Source of the DNA: an uncultured Flavobacteriales bacterium
GTDB taxonomy: Bacteria; Bacteroidota; Bacteroidia; Flavobacteriales_D; Parvicellaceae
Length of the DNA stretch: 40,072 bases
Assembly: GCA_905480225.1 (NCBI GenBank)
Contig: CAJQPO010000063.1
Location: forward strand, 1-40,072
Direction: 5' to 3'
Shown piece by piece: positions 4,181 through 5,698 of this stretch. Made by a program: the position numbers and the translations under genes. The first letter of the stretch is position 1. Each line of letters begins with the position of its first letter. The notes beneath the pieces were generated by a model. The model did not search any database. It was not told the DNA's origin and worked only from the letters and a program-made list of their open reading frames with translations.

Positions 4181-4384
4181 CTAATGTTCTAGCACTACTG
4201 AAGCGAAACGAAATACTCTTGACTTCTTAGTGAAAAGAATGAATAGCTGGTTATTAATGTATTTGCCAATTTTCGGTAAAATTATGGTCTCCTGCTCTTC
4301 TGTATCAAATAGAAGGTTTTTTGTAATCTCTCCATTTGTATTAATATTGACCATCGCTGTTATACTGCGTTGAGGATTGTTCAT
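4181..4384 (-). pseudogene. C-terminal piece of the preceding exported protein, separated by an in-frame TAG
   Basis: This 67-codon stretch is not an independent gene. It lies in exactly the reading frame of the 433-residue gene upstream (4397-5698) and is joined to it by one TAG plus four sense codons (Glu-Ile-Arg-Thr). Its sequence (MNNPQRSITAMVNI, then ETIILPKI and a terminal RVFRFASVV stretch) matches, from memory, the conserved end of related Bacteroidota proteins, where an 'NP-(K/Q)-(K/R)-S' segment follows the 'FNDN..NF' segment. Frame and composition are kept for 68 further codons with no second stop. The piece could be a nonsense-mutation remnant, the product of stop readthrough, or the result of a sequencing error. 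Confidence 0.7.
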
Positions 4385-4396
4385 TGTTCTAATTTC

Positions 4397-5698
4397 CTAT
4401 GCTTCGTTTTCTTCAAAATTTTTCAGATTGTCGTTGTAAATCACACTGATTCCATTCTTATTAGGCACCACTACATACCCAGAGTAATCTCCATTATCAT
4501 TTGATGTAACTTGTTTCTTAGCTATTTTTTTTGTCCACAGTTCTTTTCCGTCTGAGTCAATTTTTACCACAATTATATCATTGTAGTGGTAATAATAGGT
4601 ATAGTTCGTAACGCCTGTTCTTTGATCAAAATAACTGGATGTTCTAACAAAGTATTGTTCAGCCGTCATATACATACTACCATCATGACCATTTACAAAA
4701 TAATCGAAATGAAAATCTTTTAAATCCATTTTCTTTGATTGTTGCCTACCCGACACAAATTGGTTTGTGAAACCATCAGAAAAGGGATTCAGACTTTTAT
4801 TTTTTATTACAATTGAATCTTTGTCAATGGTCATACAAATCGTTCCGGAGCTCGCTCCTTCTTTTGTATCATTGTAGAAACCGCCAACCATCAGGTTTCC
4901 GTCCTTCTTAAAAGACATATTTAATCCATTAACCCATTTGTCTTTCAATTGTATATCAAATTCTTTCAATTTATTCTTGCGGTTATTGTAAACCAGAACT
5001 GTATAATTCTTAATCATTGCACCTCTGTTCTTATTTTGTTTAGACAGTACATTGTTATAGGTCGTTAGCAAAAAGACATTTCCATTTTCATCAACTTGTT
5101 TGCCAATGATTTTAAATTCCTGATCTAAATATGGCAATTTGATTTCTGTCGTCCACAGTTGTTTCAGAGAGTCGTTATACATCGTTAATCTGAACTTCTC
5201 CATGTTGTATTTTTCATATGGTGGAGATTCTATCACTAAAAGCTTGGAATAATCTTGCGATTCCACAAAATCAAAAGTGCCTTTGTGATTCGATTTTTTA
5301 TAATCTATAGATCCAATTGAAGTTAGTTTTGCAGCGCTATTACGAGCTAGTCGTGCATTAGCAATTATTTGGTTTTTTTCTGTGTCTGTATTAATAAAGA
5401 GGGCATAAACCTGATTACCTAGCTCAACCAATGACTCTAGATTTTGATTGTTGGTTTGTATCATCTGTTCACCCCCGAAATTCATCTCGGGCAAACTAAA
5501 ATCTTGAATATACGCATCTGGGTCACCAAAGGCCTTATAATGAGCAAGCACTGCCGAAAAAGAAGCACTATCCAATTTCAAAAGTCGCTTCATTTTGGCC
5601 TTACCTCGGATACTTAGCTCTGGACTCCAATTTATTTTCTGGGCAGTTAGCTCTTGAAGAAAGATAACGGCTAATATGATGAAAAAAAGTTGTCTCAA
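4397..5698 (-). CDS. Exported Bacteroidota protein of unknown function, truncated by in-frame TAG
   Basis: A 433-residue protein with a clear Sec signal peptide (MRQLFFIILAVIFLQELTAQ). No enzyme motif is recognised. The body has repeated beta-rich, propeller-like segments with stretches such as DENGNVFLLT, DGSMYMTAEQYF and DSDGKELWTKKI, as in a family of large secreted proteins widespread in Bacteroidota with no assigned role. It stops at a TAG (4397-4399) inside a region that relatives continue through; the missing C-terminal 68 codons follow in the same frame. The full-length version would be about 505 residues. It lies 22 bases downstream of rlmN in the same orientation. Function unknown. 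Confidence 0.8.
   Translation of the reverse strand: MRQLFFIILAVIFLQELTAQKINWSPELSIRGKAKMKRLLKLDSASFSAVLAHYKAFGDPDAYIQDFSLPEMNFGGEQMIQTNNQNLESLVELGNQVYALFINTDTEKNQIIANARLARNSAAKLTSIGSIDYKKSNHKGTFDFVESQDYSKLLVIESPPYEKYNMEKFRLTMYNDSLKQLWTTEIKLPYLDQEFKIIGKQVDENGNVFLLTTYNNVLSKQNKNRGAMIKNYTVLVYNNRKNKLKEFDIQLKDKWVNGLNMSFKKDGNLMVGGFYNDTKEGASSGTICMTIDKDSIVIKNKSLNPFSDGFTNQFVSGRQQSKKMDLKDFHFDYFVNGHDGSMYMTAEQYFVRTSSYFDQRTGVTNYTYYYHYNDIIVVKIDSDGKELWTKKIAKKQVTSNDNGDYSGYVVVPNKNGISVIYNDNLKNFEENEA

Follow-up and report, generated by a model that had tools for sequence, protein, structure and literature searches.

Recent nonsense pseudogenes of bacteria are marked by a single stop in an otherwise constrained reading frame, with no such stop in their relatives. 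The gene described here, from an uncultured marine Flavobacteriales bacterium, resembles them in each of these respects, and the one difference that we can name is the possibility of a sequence error. Full-length similarity, together with a signal peptide, places it in an unnamed Flavobacteriales family of exported proteins. With this family, the broken copy shares the signal peptide, a length of ~505–540, a common C-terminus and a core of the form AEQYYV...YHYNDIIVV...W..K..K.Q...NDNG, whereas it alone, among the matches listed, carries an in-frame stop. Its likeness to BamB and WD40 propellers is limited to the predicted fold, at 6–14% sequence identity and with no evidence for a shared function.

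The window analysed (the whole stretch of DNA, 40,072 nt) carries the gene on the minus strand, which corrects the first-pass annotation. The frame opens with a TTG start and runs for 433 codons (5698..4400), encoding a signal peptide of the Bacteroidota type (MRQLFFIILAVIFLQELTAQ) and most of a predicted β-propeller. It is then interrupted by an in-frame TAG at codon 434 (4399-4397), after which a segment of 71 codons (4184..4396) leads to a second TAG (4183-4181) that closes the extended frame. The orthologue in the sister genome (G002) stops at this same TAG. Translation bears out the earlier claims that the TAG at 4397-4399 splits a secreted protein and that neither a second stop nor a frameshift precedes the tail's own TAG, as the frame 5698..4181 is clean apart from this one internal TAG. 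The tail was also rightly described as the residues EIRT followed by a 67-codon ORF (EIRT-MNNPQRSITAM...VVLEH), but these add up to 71 codons and not to the 68 given earlier. The start codon of this ORF, an ATG, is the fifth codon past the TAG. A split gene with independent translation of the tail was considered but is not supported, as such a product would lack a signal peptide and no aligned relative is organized in this way.

Three genomes of the genus were compared: G000 (carrying the broken copy), G001 and G002. The G001 orthologue (52% identical) is open across its full length. In G002, the closest relative, the orthologue is 82% identical, encodes Glu at position 434 and has sense codons through the whole tail. 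Another congener has Ile at this position. In an alignment of 25 sequences, column 434 is variable, with homologues having codons for Glu, Ile, Arg, Gly and others; such poor conservation argues against a special residue at the position of the stop, and this idea was discarded. Judged from the sequences, the interruption would be a single nonsense base, a substitution relative to the Glu codon of the sister species. The earlier proposal of a one-base change thus holds as to the single-base difference, but the sister codon encodes Glu, not the Lys (AAG) or Gln (CAG) that had been suggested.

Beyond the genus, the family of exported proteins is present in 269 of the 399 genomes of the order-level search, in which the matches listed and inspected are the stronger ones. 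Full-length homologues from the family and order searches have open frames of ~510–560 codons, and the best of them align up to query residue ~500. Among the matches listed in the genus, family and order searches, an internal stop (one TAG) occurs only in G000, so the premature stop at codon 434 has no counterpart in these orthologues. Homologues continue through codon 434, and the tail aligns with their C-termini almost up to the last residues, which argues that the tail is not a product of chance and agrees with the earlier impression that it resembles the C-terminus of related Bacteroidota exported proteins. A distant intact paralogue is found in the same genome (L006, G000:C3:15310-16248; 21% identity, 478-codon frame), and another genus of the family carries two copies side by side (L010 and L023, G036:C343).

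The sequence past the stop is not only homologous but also shows little relaxation. In a comparison of G000 with G002, the Nei-Gojobori dN/dS amounts to 0.102 over codons 1-433 and 0.149 over codons 435-505, both based on small numbers, compared with 0.033-0.273 for neighbouring genes. With G001 as the outgroup, one tail change falls on the G000 branch, four fall on the G002 branch and six are unassigned; the numbers are again small, and the G000 branch has no excess of tail change. Four tail positions (G456, L463, P475 and K476) are invariant or near-invariant in the alignment. Across the family, mean identity is 22.9% for the tail versus 28.0% for the body. Since the tail has not decayed on the G000 branch, the stop is either young or not real.

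Searches of Pfam, NCBIfam and PDB sequences with the protein returned nothing significant or above cut-off, so the family could not be named, and literature searches gave nothing on point. An AlphaFold2 model of the full frame, built with 24 homologues, has a mean pLDDT of 84 and is nearly all β. Solved β-propellers match residues 17-504 of this model (Z ~16–18, maximum 18.4; rmsd about 4; ~310–335 residues) at 6–14% sequence identity, and the matches ranked 1-50 are generic propellers that indicate no function. The gene product is therefore predicted to be a secreted, uncharacterized Flavobacteriales β-propeller of about 505 residues. In the model, the strands 445-453, 458-465, 485-492 and 495-502, the last four of the predicted propeller, all lie past the stop.

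Frame breaks also occur in two relatives. The G002 orthologue has an independent one-base break near codon 201 (L032:3594-3600), which is either a real mutation or an assembly error. A more distant homologue in G028 is broken near the counterpart of codon 430, only a few codons away from the position that corresponds to the TAG at codon 434 (L031/L017, G028:C77, about 2055-2065). These cases show that the gene, or assemblies like the present one, are disrupted from time to time, and such breaks could even be frequent. That the G028 break falls in the same linker as the TAG of G000 is mildly odd, but a coincidence of these two breaks may be due to chance.

If the TAG were read through by a suppressor tRNA, recoding or programmed readthrough, a 505-residue protein would be made, and the persisting constraint on the tail speaks for this. 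The decoding machinery argues otherwise. The genome encodes an intact release factor 1 without internal stops, and no tRNA with a CUA anticodon, or otherwise reading UAG, was found among 28 tRNA matches (27 of them named by ARAGORN) in a genome that is 96% complete, a level at which a tRNA could have escaped detection. The 28th match resembles part of a tRNA-Arg and has TCT at the anticodon position (L060:1501-1558, G000:C124); its 5′ acceptor arm misfits the 3′ arm, ARAGORN made no call, and the sequence may be what is left of an integration site. PylS gave no match above the cut-off, only matches below it inside longer proteins, as in most control genomes. Stop usage was sampled over about 0.31 Mb of genome stretches, including the window. 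Here, TAG terminates 33 of 185 long genes and is followed by a mean in-frame extension of 23.6 codons, no longer than after TAA; a scan for long extensions yielded mostly apparent adjacent genes in the same frame. TAG is an ordinary stop in this genome. Together, these findings leave recoding of TAG unsupported, and its genome-wide form was rejected, in line with the earlier view that it was unlikely. The stop also occurs in none of the relatives listed, so there is no conserved readthrough signal, and we regard readthrough at this codon as highly improbable.

We consider it fairly likely that the gene carries a recent nonsense allele and that this allele is probably null. One base change would have converted codon 434, which specifies Glu in the sister species, to TAG, recently, because the codons past it still look constrained. 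Termination would then most likely give a 433-residue product that lacks the last four strands. Loss of the last blade should destabilize a propeller, and the product should leave the ring unclosed, which is why the allele is probably null and the truncated protein probably non-functional. The converse, that the 433-residue product still works, could draw on the G028 break, by which two relatives would lose about the same piece, and on the somewhat lower conservation of the tail relative to the body. Nearly all close homologues among the matches listed keep the tail, however, the near-invariant residues and a dN/dS of 0.15 speak for its retention, and in the model the ring is completed by its strands; we find tolerated truncation quite unlikely. 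A version in which the propeller repeatedly and independently (here and in G028) is cut short in the linker that follows the 'NDNxKN' motif, so that the last strands are missing, and nevertheless works is even more doubtful. Of greater weight, though still unlikely, is that the T stems from a miscalled base, from a faulty consensus or from a minority strain, and that the gene is intact in the population. The genome, probably a metagenome assembly, is spread over 129 contigs, relaxation is not seen in the tail, and the other breaks examined (G002 and G028) come only from fragmented assemblies, but the change is a substitution and not a homopolymer indel, and the remainder of the frame is clean. 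The data show the stop itself, a tail that is homologous and constrained, and no detected recoding machinery; that function is lost, and that the T is genuine as opposed to a consensus error, we infer. Of the options listed in the first-pass annotation, nonsense mutation and assembly error are thus favoured over readthrough and functional truncation.

The recent nonsense allele that we favour, like the base error, looks like an event of a known kind, an ordinary loss-of-function mutation or miscalled base and not a new reading of the code. Since it concerns one base of a single assembly, it carries small weight alone, and automatic annotation will give this copy a truncated product. As a by-product of the analysis, exported β-propellers are predicted for a widespread family of Flavobacteriales that has no name in Pfam or NCBIfam.
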